Shown here: positions 13,778 through 20,687 of the stretch, piece by piece | Layout of the letters: every line of letters starts with the position of its first letter | How positions within the stretch are numbered: the stretch's first letter is position 1 | DNA from: Clostridia bacterium | GTDB taxonomy: Bacteria; Bacillota; Clostridia; Oscillospirales; Acutalibacteraceae | Direction of reading: 5' to 3' | Length of the DNA stretch: 39,228 nt | NCBI GenBank assembly: GCA_017415515.1 | Contig: JAFQGI010000018.1 | Location: forward strand, 1 to 39,228 | The notes under the pieces: generated by a model | Told to the model about the DNA's origin: nothing | Seen by the model: only the letters and a program-made list of their open reading frames with translations | The model's database searches: none | Made by a program: the position numbers and the translations under genes

Positions 13778-14605
13778 TTACACTCTTTCCAGAATGAACT
13801 TGACGATCTCCTCTTGCACGCCATCCATGCCGGGCTGAGGCTCCACGCCGTAGTGCATCGGCTCAAAGCCGTGACCGCCCGCGACGGAATACATCAGGCG
13901 GGTGTTGGCGCCCGCCTCCACCAGCTTGTCAAACAGCTTTTCAGAGTGGCGGGGCAGCACGTGATAGTCGCTGGTGCCCGCGATCAGCAGGGTGTCGGGG
14001 GTGGTGGCGCAGGCATAGGTGATGGGGCTGACACGTGCCTTTTCGCTCTCGTCGGCGGGGTCGGCAAACAGATAGCCGTGGTCAAACTGCATGGCTTTTT
14101 CATCCGCCAGGTCGGTGATGGGACTCATGGGGGCGATGCCGCGGACGGTGTAGGGATCGGTGTAGGATTTCTCCGTGCAAAAGCCCTCCTTCACCATACC
14201 GGTCATCAGCGCCAGATGGGCACCGGCAGAGTGACCGGAGATGAAGAATTTGTCGCGGTCGATCCCCCACTCGTCGGCGTGGTGGGCGCAGAAGCGCAAG
14301 GCATCCAAGCAGTCCTCGATGATGTCGGCGACAAAAACGCCCTCGGGGGTGACGCGATAGTCGGCGGCAACAACGGCAAAGCCCTTGTCCAGCAGAGCAC
14401 CCACAGACACCTTGGCGTAATTCATCATGCCCAGGCGCTCCTCCACATACCAGCCGCCACCGGGCAGCACAAAATACAGCGGAGCTTTGTCATACACTTT
14501 CTTGTTGGGGGGCACAAAGGTCAGTTGCAGATCCCGTTGAGGGGTCACCTTATACACATAGTCGGTCTGTCCGTCGTTCCACAGGGGATAGGTCCATTCG
14601 CTCAT
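13778..14605 (-). CDS. Alpha/beta-hydrolase esterase (acetyl-esterase/HSL-like)
   Basis: Protein of 275 aa without a signal peptide. It has an oxyanion-hole segment LPGGGWYVEE (residues 47-56, PGGGW in place of the commoner HGGGW), nucleophile elbow SGHSAGAH with Ser126, the Asp of GTSDYHVLPRHS and the His of GGHGFEP, which make a plausible catalytic triad. This is the BD-FAE/acetyl-esterase type of carboxylic ester hydrolase, often acting on acetylated sugars or short esters; the substrate is unknown. Start ATG 14605 has AAGGAG at 8 nt; that site overlaps the stop of the upstream zinc-ribbon gene, and the genes are 5 bp apart, so they share a transcript. Confidence 0.88.
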   Translation of the reverse strand: MSEWTYPLWNDGQTDYVYKVTPQRDLQLTFVPPNKKVYDKAPLYFVLPGGGWYVEERLGMMNYAKVSVGALLDKGFAVVAADYRVTPEGVFVADIIEDCLDALRFCAHHADEWGIDRDKFFISGHSAGAHLALMTGMVKEGFCTEKSYTDPYTVRGIAPMSPITDLADEKAMQFDHGYLFADPADESEKARVSPITYACATTPDTLLIAGTSDYHVLPRHSEKLFDKLVEAGANTRLMYSVAGGHGFEPMHYGVEPQPGMDGVQEEIVKFILERV

Positions 14606-14610
14606 ATCGG

Positions 14611-15459
14611 TCACTCCTTATCTTGGTTTATCTCGGTTTTTCCGCAGACACGGCAACGCCGTCCCACGGTCACGGTCTTGTCATGGGCGGGGGTGTCCAC
14701 CACCCAAGTCTGCTCCTCCACCTCGCGGTACTCTTCGAAGGTTTCGTAGCGGTCACGGAAAACAACTTCCAACGAGTCGCCATCGTGTTGGGAGTCAAAA
14801 TGATCGTAATAGTCTTCCAACGTGCCAAACTCTTTATAGCACAGCGCACAGCGGAACAGGGTCAATCGTTTCTCCACAGTCTTGGTTTCGTAGTGCCCCT
14901 TCTCCTCCACGTGCACCGTCTCGGTGATAGACTCCCAACTGTGACCTGCCGCACAGGAGGAGGCGGTGATGCCGGTGGATGCCGTTGGAGTGACGGAAGA
15001 TCCGCGAGTGGTGGTGCTTGTGGCGGCAGAAGATCCGCGAGTGGTGGTGCTTGTGACACCGCTTGCGGCGGAAGTGGTGGTGGCATGGGTGGTGGTGCTT
15101 GTGCCGCCGGTAGCATGGGTGAGTGAGGGGTGTTTCGTGGTGGTTGCGGTGGCGTCGGACGCGGTTTGGCGGGTGGAGGCGGTGGAGGCGGCAGAAGCCG
15201 CCGCCGTGGTTGTGGTGGAGGCTCCGACGGATGCGGCATCCTCCTTTTTGGCGGGGGGCGATTGCCACGGCCGCCATAGCCACAGGCCGCACAGGAGCAA
15301 CCACAGCAACAGCGCGATGATGAGCCACAGCCACCATCGGCGGCGCCGACGAACGGGGGTGTCGCCAATCACCGTTTCGGTTATCAGTTTTTCCATGCAA
15401 TAGGGGCAAAACTGCATCTCCTGCGGCAGCTCTTTTCCGCAGTGGGGACAGGGCTTCAT
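14611..15459 (-). CDS. Zinc-ribbon/TM protein with Ser/Thr stalk and extracytoplasmic C2H2-type domain
   Basis: Protein of 282 aa. Cytoplasmic zinc ribbon (C4, C7, C18, C21), an Arg cluster, a Trp/Leu-rich TM helix at 42-62, then a stalk of about 95 residues that is almost all S, T, A and G (with repeats of STTTRGSS). The C-terminal domain (about 169-282) has CAAGHSW (C169, H173), EEKGHYET, then C204-x2-C207-x12-H220-x4-H225 with Phe three residues after the second Cys, and a last CRVCG (C269, C272). The middle motif matches the classical C2H2 finger spacing. The same domain ends the 17816 lipoprotein. Start ATG 15459 follows GAGGAGG. Topology puts the finger outside. Function unknown. Confidence 0.83.
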   Translation of the reverse strand: MKPCPHCGKELPQEMQFCPYCMEKLITETVIGDTPVRRRRRWWLWLIIALLLWLLLCGLWLWRPWQSPPAKKEDAASVGASTTTTAAASAASTASTRQTASDATATTTKHPSLTHATGGTSTTTHATTTSAASGVTSTTTRGSSAATSTTTRGSSVTPTASTGITASSCAAGHSWESITETVHVEEKGHYETKTVEKRLTLFRCALCYKEFGTLEDYYDHFDSQHDGDSLEVVFRDRYETFEEYREVEEQTWVVDTPAHDKTVTVGRRCRVCGKTEINQDKE

Positions 15460-15485
15460 GGCAGACACCTCCTCTCACGGCAACC

Positions 15486-15514
15486 AGTATACCACATATT
15501 TCCTTACAATACAA
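15486..15514 (-). promoter_or_regulatory. Sigma-A promoter of the 14611 gene and the esterase
   Basis: On the minus strand, -35 TTGTAT (15514-15509), 17-bp spacer, -10 TATACT (15491-15486). Confidence 0.7.
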
Positions 15515-15525
15515 GATAATACAAG

Positions 15526-15556
15526 AAAAACCGAGGGCAACCGCCCTCGGTTTTTT
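15526..15556. terminator. Terminator ending the five-gene lipoprotein operon
   Basis: Stem AAAAACCGAGGGC / GCCCTCGGTTTTTT. It lies directly downstream of the 15577 gene on the minus strand and upstream of the next promoter, so it separates the two minus-strand units. Confidence 0.88.
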
Positions 15557-15576
15557 GTGTTTTGGTGCCTGTTGAG

Positions 15577-15945
15577 TTATTGTCCGATGCCGCCCAGTTT
15601 GCTGGTGCGGTAATCCGCCAGATCCTCACAGCGGGTTTTGGCATCCGAGCGGGAATAACCGACCGCGAATGTGACTACCTCGCCTTCGCAAAGCTCCGCA
15701 TAACCCCAGTCATAGGAATCGGTCTTGACCAAAAAATAGCTGTATTCCTTGTTATGCGCCGTCTGGGTTTTGAGCAGGCTGATTTTTTTAATGGAAACGC
15801 TGACCGGCTCATCCTCAGAAGAGCAGTCTGCCTCGGCGGCGTTCAAAATGGATTTGGCGTTGGTTTCTGCGTCCTTATCGCCCCCGCAGGCGGTGAGCGT
15901 CACCAAAGACAGCACAACGAGAAGAAGTGCTAACCACTTTTTCAT
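15577..15945 (-). CDS. Small lipoprotein of unknown function
   Basis: Protein of 122 aa with a clear lipoprotein signal (MKKWLALLLVVLSLVTLTAC, lipobox LTAC, then GGDKD). The mature domain of about 100 residues has a short helix (ETNAKSILNAAEADC), strands VSVSIKKISLLKT and YSYFLVKTDSYDWGYAELC, and a helical end with two more Cys. No family is recognised. It is the last gene of the minus-strand lipoprotein operon, 65 bp after the 16011 gene and followed by a terminator. The ribosome site AGGAGG lies before ATG 15945. Confidence 0.8.
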   Translation of the reverse strand: MKKWLALLLVVLSLVTLTACGGDKDAETNAKSILNAAEADCSSEDEPVSVSIKKISLLKTQTAHNKEYSYFLVKTDSYDWGYAELCEGEVVTFAVGYSRSDAKTRCEDLADYRTSKLGGIGQ

Positions 15946-16010
15946 AATGATACCTCCTGTTATTTGTGCCGATTTTATGGCACTTTTTCAAAAATCTTAT
16001 ATGGTACGGT

Positions 16011-16664
16011 TTAACCGTCTAAATCGTGGGCCTTATCGCAAATAATCAGATAAAGGAGGGTTTCCTCCTGCCCAAACAACACCTCGTATTTGTCGTCTTC
16101 CCATTTGTAAGTATAGTCGTCCACCATACCGTCTGCGTCAAAAAATGCGTTGTAGGTTTCGGCCACGTCGTCGATGATGGCGGCAGAGAAATCATCACGA
16201 ACTGTATTCCAAGCCAGGTAGAACTCATACATTTCCTTGTCCCGGTTAAACGAAGCGTACAGCGCAGGCCGACAATAAGAATAGGAGACGCTGGTAATGT
16301 AAAAGTCCATGTCGTCGATAGGATCAAACTCTTCGCCGCTGGCGTGGCGCTTCAGAAAATCAGAGCCGATAAAATCCCATACGGACGGATCGTCCAAGGG
16401 CAAGCTTACTCCATCGGTAAAATAGCCCTCCTCGTCCTCTTCCACATCTAAGGCCGGGGCCGTCAATTCGTGCGCTTCCAGCGTATCACAAAAATCATCG
16501 TAGGACATACCGAATTTCAGGTCGAAAGGCAGAGCAAAAGCAGCCTCCTCTTCCACAACCTTTTCTTTTTCCGCTTTCTCTTTCTTATCGCAGGCGGTAA
16601 GGCTTAGCATACCTACCAGCATCACCAAGGCTAACAGAATCGCTAACCATGCCTTTCTTTTCAT
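16011..16664 (-). CDS. Lipoprotein with LKFGMSYD domain
   Basis: Protein of 217 aa: lipoprotein signal (MKRKAWLAILLALVMLVGMLSLTAC), short K/E linker, then a domain beginning ALPFDLKFGMSYDDFCDTLEAHELTAPAL, with LPLDDPSVWDFIGSDFLKRH in the middle and KWEDDKYEVLFGQEETLLYLIICD at the end. The same domain forms the N-terminal half of the 17816 lipoprotein, so the two are paralogues sharing one module. Start ATG 16664 follows AGGAGGAAATTGC; the longer in-frame ORF upstream lies in another frame of the preceding gene and is not credible. The signal peptide is almost the same as that of the next gene upstream (16736), which suggests exchange or duplication. Function unknown. Confidence 0.83.
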   Translation of the reverse strand: MKRKAWLAILLALVMLVGMLSLTACDKKEKAEKEKVVEEEAAFALPFDLKFGMSYDDFCDTLEAHELTAPALDVEEDEEGYFTDGVSLPLDDPSVWDFIGSDFLKRHASGEEFDPIDDMDFYITSVSYSYCRPALYASFNRDKEMYEFYLAWNTVRDDFSAAIIDDVAETYNAFFDADGMVDDYTYKWEDDKYEVLFGQEETLLYLIICDKAHDLDG

Positions 16665-16735
16665 GCAATTTCCTCCTGTTGTTTTGCATTCATAAACCAG
16701 TTGGTTGCGGTGCAAGCTCCAACGTGGGGAGACGA

Positions 16736-17395
16736 TTAATACTCGTCGCCGTAATGACCGTAGTAATCGTCGTAATCGTCGCTGTAGTAGCAGTTGGCGA
16801 CCTTCCATTTGCCGTCGATCTTCACGACGGTCACGGTCAAATCGTTAATGACGCTCTCATACACATGGCCGGAGATGCTGACCTTTACGGTCACGTCCAC
16901 GGCCTCTTCAATATCCTCCACGTCGTCCTCGTCGATGTATTCGTCATAATTCTCCAGCAGATAGTTGATGACTGCTCCAACCTCTTCTTCGTCCATTTCT
17001 TCGGTATCGGTAGCCTCGACCGTGAGCTCATAATCGTCGCCGTATTCTTCTTTCATGTATTCTTTGGCTTGATCGAGGAAGACTTTATACGCCTTTTTCC
17101 AGCTGGAGATGTCCTCGTCGCATTCCTCGCTCAATTCCTCAAAGAATTCTTCCTCGGAGTCGAACTCGTCGAGAGCATCATCCTTCAACTCAGCCTCGAA
17201 ATCGTAGGCGTACAGATCAATCAAAGACTCGTAGTCCTCCATCTCCCACGCTTGGGCAAAAGCCTCGGCCACTTCCTCGGGATTGTTTGGCACGCTTTCG
17301 TCGTCTTTCTCCTTCTTGTCGCAGGCGGTGAGGCTTAGCATACTCACCAGCATCACCAGAGATAACAGAATCGCTAACCATACTTTTCTTTTCAT
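16736..17395 (-). CDS. Very acidic lipoprotein, paralogue of the 9785 gene
   Basis: Protein of 219 aa. Lipoprotein signal (MKRKVWLAILLSLVMLVSMLSLTAC), then NNPEEVAEAFAQAWEMEDYESLIDLYAYDFEAEL, an acidic helical middle, closing strand LTVTVVKIDGKWKVANCYY and a tail of D and Y (SDDYDDYYGHYGDEY). It aligns along its length with the 9785 lipoprotein, including the VAExF opening, the GKWKVA strand and the acidic-aromatic tail. Start ATG 17395 follows AAAGGAGTG; the GTG three codons upstream would put the site too close. It is the middle gene of a minus-strand operon (17816, 17429, 16736, 16011, 15577). Function unknown. Confidence 0.85.
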   Translation of the reverse strand: MKRKVWLAILLSLVMLVSMLSLTACDKKEKDDESVPNNPEEVAEAFAQAWEMEDYESLIDLYAYDFEAELKDDALDEFDSEEEFFEELSEECDEDISSWKKAYKVFLDQAKEYMKEEYGDDYELTVEATDTEEMDEEEVGAVINYLLENYDEYIDEDDVEDIEEAVDVTVKVSISGHVYESVINDLTVTVVKIDGKWKVANCYYSDDYDDYYGHYGDEY

Positions 17396-17428
17396 ACAGA
17401 ACACTCCTTTATTTTTTATTGAAAAACC

Positions 17429-17803
17429 TTAGTCCACAATGCCGAACAAGGCCTTCAAATCCTCCAGATTGTCGTCAAAATCGTAGCCGGGCGGAAGCAT
17501 TTTTGTGGCGTTGACCCTGACGCCGTTGACGCAATATACGCCATAGGCCGCCACGACGTCACGCTCCAAATAGCATTTGACCGCGATCAAATACACTTCC
17601 GATTCGTTCTGTCCTTCACCGGTATACAAAACCTCGCCCTTCACTTCGTCCGCCGCAAACCCCATTTCCTTGCGGAACGCGGAGGTGGCGTAGGATTCGG
17701 CGACCTGGATGGACTCCTCCTCGTATTTGCTGCCGAACAAACTACATCCGGAAGCCAACAGCATAATGGCAACAAGTAAACAAATAAGTGCCGATTTTTT
17801 CAT
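17429..17803 (-). CDS. Small lipoprotein of unknown function
   Basis: Protein of 124 aa with a typical lipoprotein signal (MKKSALICLLVAIMLLASGC, lipobox ASGC) and a mature part of about 105 residues. The mature part shows a helix (ESIQVAESYATSAFRKEMG), then strands EVLYTGEGQNESEVYLIAVKCYLE and AAYGVYCVNGVRVNATKM, and a short acidic helix at the end. No family is recognised. It starts 12 bp after the stop of the 17816 lipoprotein and has AAGGAGGATTTCTT before the ATG, so it is tightly linked to that gene. Two Cys in the strand region could form a disulfide. Confidence 0.8.
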   Translation of the reverse strand: MKKSALICLLVAIMLLASGCSLFGSKYEEESIQVAESYATSAFRKEMGFAADEVKGEVLYTGEGQNESEVYLIAVKCYLERDVVAAYGVYCVNGVRVNATKMLPPGYDFDDNLEDLKALFGIVD

Positions 17804-17815
17804 AAGAAATCCTCC

Positions 17816-19072
17816 TTAGTTTTTCTTTTTGCCGCACACACGGCATTCGTATCCGATGATTTCTTCTACGGTTTCCTCTTCCTGATCCACCACCCATTCT
17901 TCACGGTAGATCGGCTCCTGTTCGGTGACGGTTTCATAGCGCTCTTTAAAGAAAGAAGCAGAGTTGCCGGAAGAGGCTTCGTGCTGGGCGAAGTGAGAAT
18001 AATAGGCATTCAACGAAGAAAACGCCTCATAGCACATGGCGCATTTATAGCTGGTGACGGTGTTATAACCGCTGATCACCGTTTCATAATGTCCCTTCTC
18101 CTCGTAGTGCACGGTGTCGTAAATGGCTTCCCAATCGTGACCGTGGGCACAAGGATCTTGATTTTGGGTCGGAGTGGGAGTGGTAGGTTTATTCTGCGTA
18201 GGTATGGGTTTGTTTTGGGTGGAAGCAGGCTTGTTTTGGGTGGGGTGGTTTGTCGCCGTGGGTTTGTTTTGGGTGGGGGTGGTTTGTGCAGACTGGCCGT
18301 CGGTTGGGCCAATCGTGGTTTTTCCTGCCGTTGTCGAGTGAGAAGAACTTTTGCTTGTCCCCTCTTCCGGGAGCGGGGCTGTGTCGGCATCATAGGCATT
18401 ATCCTTGATAATCAGCGCATAGCACCCGGTTGTGGGTTGATAGAACATAACAGAGTATTTGTCGTTTTCCCAATAGCTGGTACAATCGTTTAGCTCGCCG
18501 CCGATGCCAAAGAAGGCATCGTAGTAAGGTGTTATATCAGCGGCCAAAGCTTTAATAAAGTACTGTGTAGCCGTTTCAAATTTTTCGTTCGTATAAAGGC
18601 CTATAAAACCGAATTGCGATAATTCTTTCTTCTGGTTAAAGAAAGCGTACACACAGGGGGTCGAATTACGATAGATCAACTGATGCATGAAAAGGGTGCT
18701 CTCTTCTTCATCGGCGGTTAAATGATACTCCTTGCCGGACAGGTTTTGCAGTAGTTTGGAGCCGGTGAATTTCCAGATCGAGGGGTCGTCAGTGGGGAGC
18801 GGCATAACATCCGGTTTATATCCAGGTTGGTCGGTGGCCGGCTTCAAGGGGTTAGCGGTGAGCCCGTTTTCGCTGAGCTTGGCGGCAAACTCGTCGTAGG
18901 ACATGCCGAACTTCAGGCCAAAAGGCAAGGCAATATCGGTTTCCTCTGGGGCGGTGGTGGTCGTGGTTTTCTTTTCTGTGGGTGTGTCCTCCGTCTCGAC
19001 GGGTTCGTTACCGCAGGCGGTCAGCCCCAACAGCAGACACAGCACCAATAACAGAGATACTACTTTCTTCAT
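17816..19072 (-). CDS. Lipoprotein with LKFGMSYD domain, PTQNK stalk and C2H2-type domain
   Basis: Protein of 418 aa. Lipoprotein signal (MKKVVSLLLVLCLLLGLTACG), Thr-rich linker, a globular LKFGMSYDEF domain (about 50-235, shared with the 16011 lipoprotein), and a stalk with repeated T-Q-N-K-P. A C-terminal domain shared with the 14611 protein follows: CAHGHDW (C308, H312), EEKGHYET, C344-x2-C347-x12-H360-x3-H364 with Phe three residues after the second Cys, and CRVCG (C410, C413). So it fuses modules found apart in two neighbours. It is the first gene of the operon, with a strong promoter and a 10-bp inverted repeat at the -35. A secreted Zn-binding role is inferred. Confidence 0.85.
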   Translation of the reverse strand: MKKVVSLLLVLCLLLGLTACGNEPVETEDTPTEKKTTTTTAPEETDIALPFGLKFGMSYDEFAAKLSENGLTANPLKPATDQPGYKPDVMPLPTDDPSIWKFTGSKLLQNLSGKEYHLTADEEESTLFMHQLIYRNSTPCVYAFFNQKKELSQFGFIGLYTNEKFETATQYFIKALAADITPYYDAFFGIGGELNDCTSYWENDKYSVMFYQPTTGCYALIIKDNAYDADTAPLPEEGTSKSSSHSTTAGKTTIGPTDGQSAQTTPTQNKPTATNHPTQNKPASTQNKPIPTQNKPTTPTPTQNQDPCAHGHDWEAIYDTVHYEEKGHYETVISGYNTVTSYKCAMCYEAFSSLNAYYSHFAQHEASSGNSASFFKERYETVTEQEPIYREEWVVDQEEETVEEIIGYECRVCGKKKN

Positions 19073-19104: not shown

Positions 19105-19133
19105 AATATAGCACACGTTTTCGTGATTTGCAA
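19105..19133 (-). promoter_or_regulatory. Sigma-A promoter of the five-gene lipoprotein operon
   Basis: On the minus strand, -35 TTGCAA (19133-19128), 17-bp spacer, -10 TATATT (19110-19105). Confidence 0.78.
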
Positions 19134-19152
19134 GCGTATTTTGCTTGCAAAT
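19126..19152. promoter_or_regulatory. Inverted-repeat operator candidate between lipoprotein operon and RHH gene
   Basis: Perfect 10-bp arms ATTTGCAAGC (19126-19135) and GCTTGCAAAT (19143-19152) with a 7-bp centre. The left arm includes the -35 of the lipoprotein operon. It lies 54 bp upstream of the ribbon-helix-helix gene on the other strand. Confidence 0.6.
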
Positions 19153-19205: not shown

Positions 19206-19388
19206 ATGTTTACCGTAAAAAAGCCCCAAAGCTCCAACAAGACCATCCGCATGCCGGACACGCTCATCGAAAGCCTCCAGCAGGTGGCGGACGCCAACGA
19301 CATTTCCTTCAATCAGCTGGTGGTTCAGTGCTGTGAGTATGCGCTGGCCCATCGGCAGGAGCCTTCTGCGGATCCTTCTGCACAATAA
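19206..19388 (+). CDS. Small ribbon-helix-helix (Arc/MetJ-type) DNA-binding protein
   Basis: Protein of 60 aa. The core NKTIRMPDTLIESLQQVADANDISFNQLVVQCCEYAL has the RHH pattern: an N-terminal strand with alternating basic residues, then helix A and helix B with the N-x-L-V position. Dimers of this fold bind short inverted or direct repeats. It is divergent from the lipoprotein operon, whose -35 overlaps a perfect inverted repeat, which makes it the obvious candidate regulator; that link is inferred from position. Ribosome site GAGGTG before ATG 19206. A weak -10 TACAAT lies just upstream. The 130 bp after it hold only the terminator of the kinase gene. Confidence 0.8.
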   Translation: MFTVKKPQSSNKTIRMPDTLIESLQQVADANDISFNQLVVQCCEYALAHRQEPSADPSAQ

Positions 19389-19520: not shown

Positions 19521-20222
19521 TTATACCAATCGCTCTTTCAGCTCCCACACATCGGCAAAGCGTTTGTTGGGGTCCAGTTGGGTGCATTTGTCGATGAGGG
19601 GGGCAAGTCGTCCTTTGGCAGCTTGGCGGGTGGGGTGTTGCCCCGTGAGCATCACGTTCATCATCACGCCCATGGCAAACAGATCCGAGCGGGCGTCGGT
19701 CTGGGTCACGCCGAACTGCTCGGGGGCGGCATAGCCCGCCGTGCCGATGACGCAGGTGTCCTGCCCCGCTTGGGGCTTATATTCCCGCGCAATATCAAAA
19801 TCCAGCAGTACCACCCGCCCATCGGAGCAAACCATCACGTTTTCCGGCTTGATGTCCCGATGAATATAGCCGTGCTGATGCAAAAAGCCCACGCCGTCGC
19901 ACACCGCCGCCATCACCCGCCGTACACCCGCCTCGGTGTACAGCCCGTTTTCCAAAATCTGCGCCACCGTGGAGCCGTCCAGATATTCCTCCAACACCAG
20001 GCAACGATCCCCCTCCTGCCGCACCTCGTAAATACGGGGAAGATGCGGGTGGCGCACCGTCTGCAACAGGCGATACAAAGAGCCGTCCCCCTCAAAAGAG
20101 AGGCAGACCAGGTCCTGCCCCCGTTGCTTGTGCCGCAGCTGGCGCATGGTCAGCTTTGGGGTATCCCGCAGCACCCGCACCAGCTCGTATTCGCTTTGCA
20201 ACGCCGCATTTAGCCATTGCAT
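19521..20222 (-). CDS. Hanks-type Ser/Thr kinase, catalytic domain only, with DFD motif
   Basis: Protein of 233 aa, a bare kinase domain without TM or PASTA repeats, so cytoplasmic. Catalytic loop HRDIKPENVM (121-130) is intact, APEQF (166-170) and RSDLFAMGVMM follow, but the Mg-binding motif is DFD (141-143) instead of DFG. The N-lobe lacks a glycine loop and the usual VAIK lysine (here LVCLSF). It could be active by an altered mechanism or act as a degraded kinase. Start ATG 20222 has AGAGGTG at 8 nt; the longer ORF upstream crosses the divergent promoter and gene and is rejected. It is divergent from a HTH gene, with the HTH -35 overlapping this start codon. A target is unknown; the HTH protein is a natural guess. 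Confidence 0.88.
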   Translation of the reverse strand: MQWLNAALQSEYELVRVLRDTPKLTMRQLRHKQRGQDLVCLSFEGDGSLYRLLQTVRHPHLPRIYEVRQEGDRCLVLEEYLDGSTVAQILENGLYTEAGVRRVMAAVCDGVGFLHQHGYIHRDIKPENVMVCSDGRVVLLDFDIAREYKPQAGQDTCVIGTAGYAAPEQFGVTQTDARSDLFAMGVMMNVMLTGQHPTRQAAKGRLAPLIDKCTQLDPNKRFADVWELKERLV

Positions 20223-20245
20223 ATCGTGTTCACCTCTGCTATAAT
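20217..20245 (+). promoter_or_regulatory. Sigma-A promoter of the HTH gene, overlapping the kinase start codon
   Basis: -35 TTGCAT (20217-20222), 17-bp spacer, perfect -10 TATAAT (20240-20245). The last three bases of the -35 (20220-20222) are the kinase start codon on the other strand. Confidence 0.75.
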
Positions 20246-20267
20246 GGATGGGAAAGAAGGGATCGTC

Positions 20268-20687
20268 GTGGCAAAACAAACCAAAGAAATGCTGGAACAG
20301 CTCAAACGCGCCGAGAGCCTGGACGGCTATCTGGCGGAAAACACTGCCGAGATGGTGGACGGCACGCTGCCCACCCACCTGAACGCCCTGTTGGAAGAAA
20401 CCGGTTTATCCAAATCGGAGGTGTTGCGCCGTGCCGAGATCAACGACATCTACGGCTATCAACTATTCGCCGGCTCTCGCCGTCCCTCGCGGGATAAGCT
20501 GGTGGCACTGTGCGTGGGGTTCGGGCTGTCGGATGAGCGCACCCAGCAACTGTTCAAGGCGGTGGGATTTGCTCCGCTGTATCCCAAAAATCGGCGGGAC
20601 AGCATTCTGCTGTTCGGACTGCAAAAGGGCTATACCGTTCTGCAAATCAACAACCAGTTGTACGAGCACGGAGAGCCAACCCTGTGA
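20268..20687 (+). CDS. XRE-like helix-turn-helix protein divergent from the kinase
   Basis: Protein of 139 aa. An N-terminal helix (AKQTKEMLEQLKRAESL) leads to an XRE-like domain: LNALLEETGLSKSEVLRRAEINDIYGYQLFAGSRRPSRDKLVALCVGFGLSDERTQQLFKAVG. The last 35 residues (NRRDSILLFGLQKGYTVLQINNQLYEHGEP) are helical. Start GTG 20268 has GAAGGG at 6 nt and lies downstream of the good promoter; earlier in-frame ATGs lie inside the promoter. It shares its control region with a cytoplasmic kinase, so phosphorylation of this protein and autoregulation of both genes are reasonable hypotheses. It is followed by a bidirectional terminator. Confidence 0.8.
   Translation: MAKQTKEMLEQLKRAESLDGYLAENTAEMVDGTLPTHLNALLEETGLSKSEVLRRAEINDIYGYQLFAGSRRPSRDKLVALCVGFGLSDERTQQLFKAVGFAPLYPKNRRDSILLFGLQKGYTVLQINNQLYEHGEPTL

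Follow-up and report, generated by a model that had tools for sequence, protein, structure and literature searches.

Classical C2H2 zinc fingers are known as binders of nucleic acid or protein inside cells, and PASTA kinases (PknB/Stk1) join a Ser/Thr kinase to an outer sensing part. In bacteria, Ros is characterized by a 9-residue spacer, a bbbaa fold, DNA binding and an alpha-proteobacterial origin, as given in PMC9779718, and TcaA is described in PMC10611510 as a zinc-ribbon protein. Here we analyze a stretch of 39,228 nucleotides from a Clostridia bacterium (GCA_017415515.1, JAFQGI010000018.1), hereafter the window. Two of its minus-strand genes, 14611 and 17816, encode a membrane protein and a lipoprotein, respectively, that end in the same extracytoplasmic domain with a C2H2-type finger, which we call the tip. 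We give about an even chance to the proposal that the tip is a zinc-stabilised, exchangeable recognition ectodomain, which in the 14611 protein would be receptor-like and coupled to a kinase and an XRE-like regulator encoded nearby. The proposal builds on the sequences, their relatives, a confident fold prediction, domain architecture and gene neighbourhood. Word searches, narrow in scope and confined to open-licence texts, turned up either no literature on such a domain or locus or listings that seemed unrelated, which does not imply absence from print.

The two tip domains, each of ~110 residues, are 45% identical, and both contain a finger with the spacing C-x2-C-x12-H-x3/4-H and Phe after the second Cys. 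An earlier note on this DNA, made from the sequence alone, had reported the exact C2H2 motif at residues 204-225 (counted from the ATG) of the 14611 protein and 344-364 of the 17816 protein, with CAxGH on one side and CRVCG on the other; all these elements are present in both proteins at positions of the kind it described. The topology that it proposed, a stalked domain outside the cytoplasm, also stands, given RRRRR and a single transmembrane (TM) segment in the 14611 protein and the lipobox LLGLTAC, read directly, in the 17816 protein. Binding of DNA or RNA by the finger is unlikely, since it is located after the TM segment or the lipobox. The N-terminal ribbon of the 14611 protein exceeds the Pfam cut-offs of both Zn_Ribbon_1 (26.7 bits, cut-off 25) and DUF7575 (31.9, cut-off 28.5). 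The likelier start of the 14611 gene is the ATG at 15459, with AGAGGAGG upstream, and the alternative is a GTG at 15468, three codons earlier, from which residues of this protein are numbered below unless stated. The head of lipoprotein 16011 shares 40% identity with the head of the 17816 lipoprotein, and 16011 lacks both the stalk and the tip; thus, the tip is an added module.

The AlphaFold2 model of the 14611 tip has a predicted local distance difference test score of 91 and places a beta-beta-alpha finger between two long beta-hairpins, one on either side. In the model, a strand extends to residue 39, followed by EE at 46-47 and a helix at 50-60, with the ligands C40, C43, H56 and H61 and a further short helix at 65-68. 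In addition, the tip has profile matches to solved C2H2 fingers, so the assignment to the C2H2 type by the earlier note agrees with both lines of evidence. No model in our Pfam and NCBIfam scans extends over the tip domain at its own cut-off; the C2H2 gathering scores were missed by the 14611 tip (PF13894, 18.2 of 27; PF18868, 22.4 of 30.8), and a C2H2 cut-off was missed by the 17816 protein (13.9 of 27). Foldseek searches at E ≤ 0.001 matched neither tip model to a PDB entry, nor the first to any viral model. A likeness to pore-forming proteins in weak Foldseek rows (TM-scores near 0.2) was taken to reflect shared long hairpins.

Our search pattern, slightly looser than that of the earlier note in permitting F/Y/W and L/Y/F/I/M/V at two core positions, was found in 0 of 20,000 shuffles of either window protein. 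We also scanned 784 open reading frames (ORFs), drawn from the window, from 40 neighbourhoods that were fetched and from seven loci of relatives; eight contained the pattern, every one a tip-domain carrier, six of them fetched for having the tip. We tabulated the ligands of 24 members, the two window copies and 22 relatives. The first pair reads C-x2-C in 23 members and C-x2-D in one (L024), and the later ligands read His, then His (12) or Cys (12), these counts being partly due to selection, as the ORF filter required an H-x-W-like start, C-x2-C and a C-x1/2-C-[GN] end. L006 and L029 entered the table outside the filter, L029 having no N-terminal motif. The 15 loci detected by narrow patterns form a filter-free set; here 14 have the finger stretch, with C-x2-C in 13 and C-x2-D in one, again L024. 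A CysAspHis2 sphere also binds metal in a Ros87 mutant, according to PMC5745721. The classical spacing (C-x2-C-x12-H-x3-5-H) is present in eight of the 24 members, namely both window proteins and six relatives. The other 16 have variable spacings within a His-rich domain, and we assigned their last two ligands by eye. With these 16 partly so placed, C-x2-C/D, His, and then His or Cys could be assigned in 24/24, so free loss of ligands among homologues was not found. We kept L028 and L029, which have damaged upstream parts and whole finger stretches, and omitted the disrupted or partial copies L025/L048, L055, L061, L058 and L050, as well as L032, which has only a CANGHDW end within a short H..C..CxxCG knuckle.

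The second Cys/His set at the chain ends, from which the earlier note had suggested another metal site, is present in most members. Its N-terminal motif, [CH]-x0-4-H-x-W, occurs in 20/24 (not in L024, L031, L006 and the damaged L029) and its C-terminal motif, C-x1/2-C-[GN], in 23/24, L006 having neither. Hairpin turns carry HH[DE] in 21 members, all except the two window copies and L006. Direct reading shows the turn motifs in reversed order in L030 (WVVDQAAWDE first, IHHDEVGHYE last) and repeated in L031; therefore, they look like interchangeable hairpin units. Several secreted or membrane proteins (L024:2850-3458, L023:2072-3586, L031, L032 and L109) carry short knuckles of the form H-x-Y/W ... 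C ... C-x1/2-C-G, which have end motifs in common with the tip; the tip may represent a knuckle of this kind into which hairpins and a finger are inserted.

In relatives with a readable upstream part, the tip is C-terminal and follows a low-complexity stalk. Before the stalk, L020, L021, L022 and L024 have a zinc ribbon and a TM segment, as in the 14611 protein. In L018, RCC1 repeats (RCC1_2, 132.9 bits) on a lipoprotein precede the tip; L023 and L026 have lipoprotein heads, with Ig-like matches below cut-off in L026; and L013, L027 and L054 have only an anchor. L019 combines a helix-turn-helix domain (HTH_3), a TM segment, a TPR-like part with matches below cut-off, and the tip in one protein. 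The reverse comparison starts from 29 ribbon proteins (one from the window, 24 from fetched loci, and those of L020, L021, L022 and L024). Five contain the tip, 14 sequence resembling leucine-rich repeats (LRR) by a loose pattern, and one knuckle repeats; the other nine are unassigned. A Pfam scan of nine ribbon proteins placed BspA-type LRR_5 above cut-off in five (L097, L099, L101, L106 and L113) and just below it in L103, and did not find it in L095, L100 and L109. The LRR_5 matches support exchange, and the tip may fill an exchangeable outer slot of the ribbon-TM protein.

The neighbourhood of the 14611 gene contains genes for a Ser/Thr-kinase-like protein and, divergent from it, an XRE-like protein. 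The kinase keeps HRD (HRDIKPEN), the metal Asp of DFG (DFD) and APE (APEQ). It may be atypical or inactive, because no glycine loop or strand-3 Lys was seen; in the 35 kinases of XRE loci (L095-L134, L020, L022, L024 and the window) neither was clear, the N-lobe alignment being poor. HRD is kept in 34 of the 35 (HKD in L112), and DFG reads DFD or DFN in 23. Relatives of both genes lie beside tip genes in L020, L022 and L024. In all four loci with enough flank, two of which are near relatives, the ribbon-TM-tip protein is accompanied by genes for a kinase and an XRE protein.

We searched 200 genomes of the same family for members of the XRE family; 79 matched at E ≤ 1e-8, many via part of a longer HTH protein. 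Leaving the window's own locus aside, we fetched the 40 best-matching places. Four of these yielded no XRE ORF; with the other 36, the window, L020, L022 and L024, 40 loci were compared. Within 6.5 kb, a kinase was found in 33, a ribbon-like protein in 31 by a loose pattern that takes in a collagen-like protein (L119) and others, and both in 27. A strict ribbon pattern matched 22 of 300 ORFs at most 4 kb from the XRE gene vs. 2 of 352 farther away, and a ribbon-TM protein, with one variant permitted, was present at 22 of the 40 fetched loci. The tip domain was found in none of the 669 ORFs at the latter. The source genome itself has a second XRE / ribbon-TM / kinase set (L100, contig C24) with a different ectodomain, which no Pfam model named. 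Among 30 loci with both XRE and kinase genes, window included, none combines a TM-kinase with a ribbon protein, nine have a TM-kinase alone, 19 a soluble kinase and a ribbon protein, and two a soluble kinase alone, one of these (L100) having a variant ribbon. This complementarity looked strong by the Fisher test, and on the XRE tree it needs four changes, two of them forced. The tip label requires three changes on the kinase tree, and 54 of 500 shuffles were as low, meaning that the tip is not clustered beyond chance there; it has been gained or lost more than once among the compared loci.

Given the zinc ribbon and the kinase/XRE context, a receptor ectodomain is the likelier role of the tip; the earlier note was right about a finger domain outside the cytoplasm and overlooked both of these features. 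Two or more beta-hairpins would form an elongated arm, with a C2H2 finger (CCHC in relatives) inserted between the ingoing and outgoing hairpins. At the ends of the chain, the second Cys/His set probably coordinates one more zinc and would close the base. At the C-terminus, beyond a long disordered stalk, the tip would serve as an exchangeable module for recognition. The ribbon-TM protein would supply the membrane part to a soluble kinase, the cytoplasmic ribbon of the 14611 protein presumably working with the nearby kinase and XRE-like regulator, whose activity a ligand at the tip would alter. The 17816 lipoprotein would present the same tip on an unrelated head, probably for the same kind of target. 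More tentatively, and at somewhat less than an even chance, we suggest a three-part receptor system of Clostridia, comprised of an XRE-like regulator, an atypical kinase and a ribbon-TM protein, with ectodomains swapped among BspA-type LRR, knuckle repeats, other folds and, as one sensing module, the two-zinc C2H2-finger domain. On the kinase tree, the TM-kinases are set apart from the rest by a single branch (97/91), which reduces the complementarity to one switch. In the window locus, terminator-like hairpins (20 sites found in the scan vs. 9.1 expected) separate a kinase unit, a lipoprotein unit and a 14611 unit, which therefore need not be co-regulated.

The most serious alternative, which we consider unlikely, is that the tip serves passively, as an adhesin or for contact with the cell wall. 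It would then be a rigid end cap, stabilised by zinc, that binds a wall polymer, mucus or another surface protein and takes no part in signalling, and its kinase neighbourhood would be coincidental. The unrelated heads, including lipoproteins without a cytoplasmic part, the tip-less paralogue 16011 and the small-lipoprotein genes adjoining tip genes in three relatives would all fit this role. Against it stand the four loci mentioned above, where the ribbon-TM-tip protein accompanies kinase and XRE genes, and the union of HTH, TM and tip in the single L019 protein.

Another possibility is that metal binding itself is the signal, the stalked domain reading out or storing zinc or another metal, as in the Zn-sensing role considered by the earlier note. 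Two ligand sets and the HH[DE] turns point in this direction. However, the ligands drift (HH, HC, C-x2-D) and the site persists, as structural sites do, and no zinc transporter or regulator was found among the neighbours scanned, which did not include every neighbour. This drift of ligand types favours a structural role of zinc over one as a signal, and we regard a metal sensor or store as improbable, less likely than the note had it. More improbable still are disulfides between the Cys pairs, with incidental His and no metal. The location outside the cell and two C-x2-C pairs per domain would suit such bonds, yet anaerobes form few disulfides, His followed by His or Cys occurs in all 24 members, the profiles match zinc fingers, and the five Cys of the 14611 tip would leave one unpaired. 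The least probable reading, that the XRE/kinase/ribbon locus is an anti-phage unit with the tip as trigger sensor, draws on PADLOC matches of PD-T4-6 to the kinase (8.2e-40) and capH to the HTH protein (0.0011), but these are generic for kinase and HTH (PknB matches the same kinase at 4.2e-35), the 14611, 17816 and 17429 proteins have no PADLOC match, and a tblastn search with the L018 tip had no hit among 50,697 phage and 72,556 plasmid records.

A bacterial C2H2 finger outside the cell, its ligands varying among CCHH, CCHC and CDHH on one scaffold, would exemplify the use of the finger as the plain structural core of a recognition domain. From the neighbourhood, we suggest a family of receptors that are linked to a kinase and have exchangeable outer domains.

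The tip domain is sparsely distributed. The source genome (68% complete) has only these two copies at significant score. At E ≤ 0.001, none of nine other genomes of the genus matched (G429 gave 0.09, with the domain absent from the fetched stretch), and the 14611 sequence matched only its own genome among 150 of the family. A two-sequence profile at E ≤ 0.01 matched 4 of 295 in the order: the source genome, G221 (L005, 1.1e-38), the divergent L006 of the same family and the unrelated L007. In the class, 4 of 391 matched at E ≤ 0.001 (the source, L013, L014 and one methyltransferase-like protein); in the phylum, 2 of 299 (the source and a methyltransferase-like protein) and, with a broader profile, 1 of 398 (the source). 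Narrow patterns run over 84,980 species genomes yielded the 15 loci, mostly from Clostridia metagenome-assembled genomes (MAGs) by title, several from animal gut; when the 12 genomes behind them were searched again, four had more than one matching stretch (5, 9, 2 and 2). Since no relative was confirmed in viral contigs, phages or plasmids, we reject mobile or viral carriage of the tip. L007 (sensor-kinase-like), L003, L009, L010 and L011 have no tip domain and were dropped. L015 and L017 matched in the part that contains the finger and were excluded; read from sequence, they resemble DNA methyltransferases and carry a C2H2-like finger (KCLICNQNFERKNDYLIHFKDKH) at the N-terminus. Separately, an in-frame TAG is found in several tip copies of two many-copy Clostridium sp. 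MAGs (L025/L048, L055, L061 and, upstream of the domain, L028); these may be pseudogenes, assembly errors or recoding.

Table 1. Features of the window discussed in the text
Feature	Position	Strand	Basis or remark
Membrane protein 14611: N-terminal zinc ribbon, one TM, Ser/Thr stalk, C-terminal zinc-finger tip domain; 282 aa counted from the ATG	14611..15459	-	
Zinc ribbon CPHCGKELPQEMQFCPYC of 14611 protein, residues 7-24, cytoplasmic by topology	15397..15450	-	Pfam
TM stretch of 14611 protein, residues 45-65 (GTG numbering), RRRRR just before	15274..15336	-	Reading and hydropathy scan
Tip domain of 14611 protein (stretch modelled)	14614..14967	-	
C2H2 finger CALCYKEFGTLEDYYDHFDSQH of 14611 protein, residues 207-228 (GTG numbering)	14785..14850	-	Beta-beta-alpha element in model
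CAAGHSW, residues 172-178 of 14611 protein, N-terminal half of second ligand set	14935..14955	-	
CRVCG, residues 272-276 of 14611 protein, C-terminal half of second ligand set	14641..14655	-	
17816 lipoprotein: N-terminal head, PTQNK stalk, C-terminal tip domain	17816..19072	-	
Tip domain of 17816 lipoprotein	17819..18157	-	
C2H2 finger CAMCYEAFSSLNAYYSHFAQH of 17816 lipoprotein, residues 344-364	17981..18043	-	
CAHGHDW, residues 308-314 of 17816 lipoprotein, N-terminal half of second ligand set	18131..18151	-	
CRVCG, residues 410-414 of 17816 lipoprotein, C-terminal half of second ligand set	17831..17845	-	
Lipoprotein 16011, natural tip-less paralogue of 17816	16011..16664	-	Head comparison
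Ser/Thr-kinase-like protein; start not settled	19521..20237	-	Pfam Pkinase 3e-34
XRE-like HTH protein, divergent from kinase	20262..20687	+	HTH_31 23.8 bits, below cut-off 27; alignment
Small lipoprotein, family found just before tip gene in L018, L020, L023	17429..17803	-	
Alpha/beta hydrolase gene overlapping stop of 14611 gene	13778..14614	-	BD-FAE 1.2e-33

Upstream of the 17816 gene, a perfect palindrome (TTTGCAAGC-N7-GCTTGCAAA, 19127-19151) overlaps a promoter-like site of this gene. Beside it lies a small divergent ORF (19206-19388), which we take to resemble a ribbon-helix-helix protein; the two are perhaps a local repressor and its operator.

Compared with known systems, the finger resembles the classical eukaryotic one (PF00096, PF13894), sharing C-x2-C-x12-H-x3/4-H, Phe after the second Cys and the modelled beta-beta-alpha fold. 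Unlike it, the tip finger is single, lies within a beta-hairpin arm outside the cell and misses the Pfam cut-offs, and 12 of the 24 members read CCHC with other spacings. Like Ros/MucR, the tip has a bacterial C2H2 finger inside a larger globular domain. However, the spacer is of 12 residues in both window proteins rather than 9, the model does not have the bbbaa fold, and the tip has hairpin arms and is extracytoplasmic; the finger is not Ros/MucR. AFV1p06 (2lvh), an archaeal virus zinc finger, covers only residues 34-79 of the model and has neither arms nor an end site. The match of the 14611 protein to TcaA of Staphylococcus (NF053815) is to the N-terminal zinc ribbon (residues 4-32), with 12.3 bits against a cut-off of 550. 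As in PASTA kinases, a Ser/Thr kinase would be linked with an outer sensing part. By contrast, the window kinase reaches 121.8 of the 450 bits set for PASTA PknB/Stk1 (NF033483) and has no TM segment in a hydropathy scan, the outer part being carried by a separate ribbon-TM protein.

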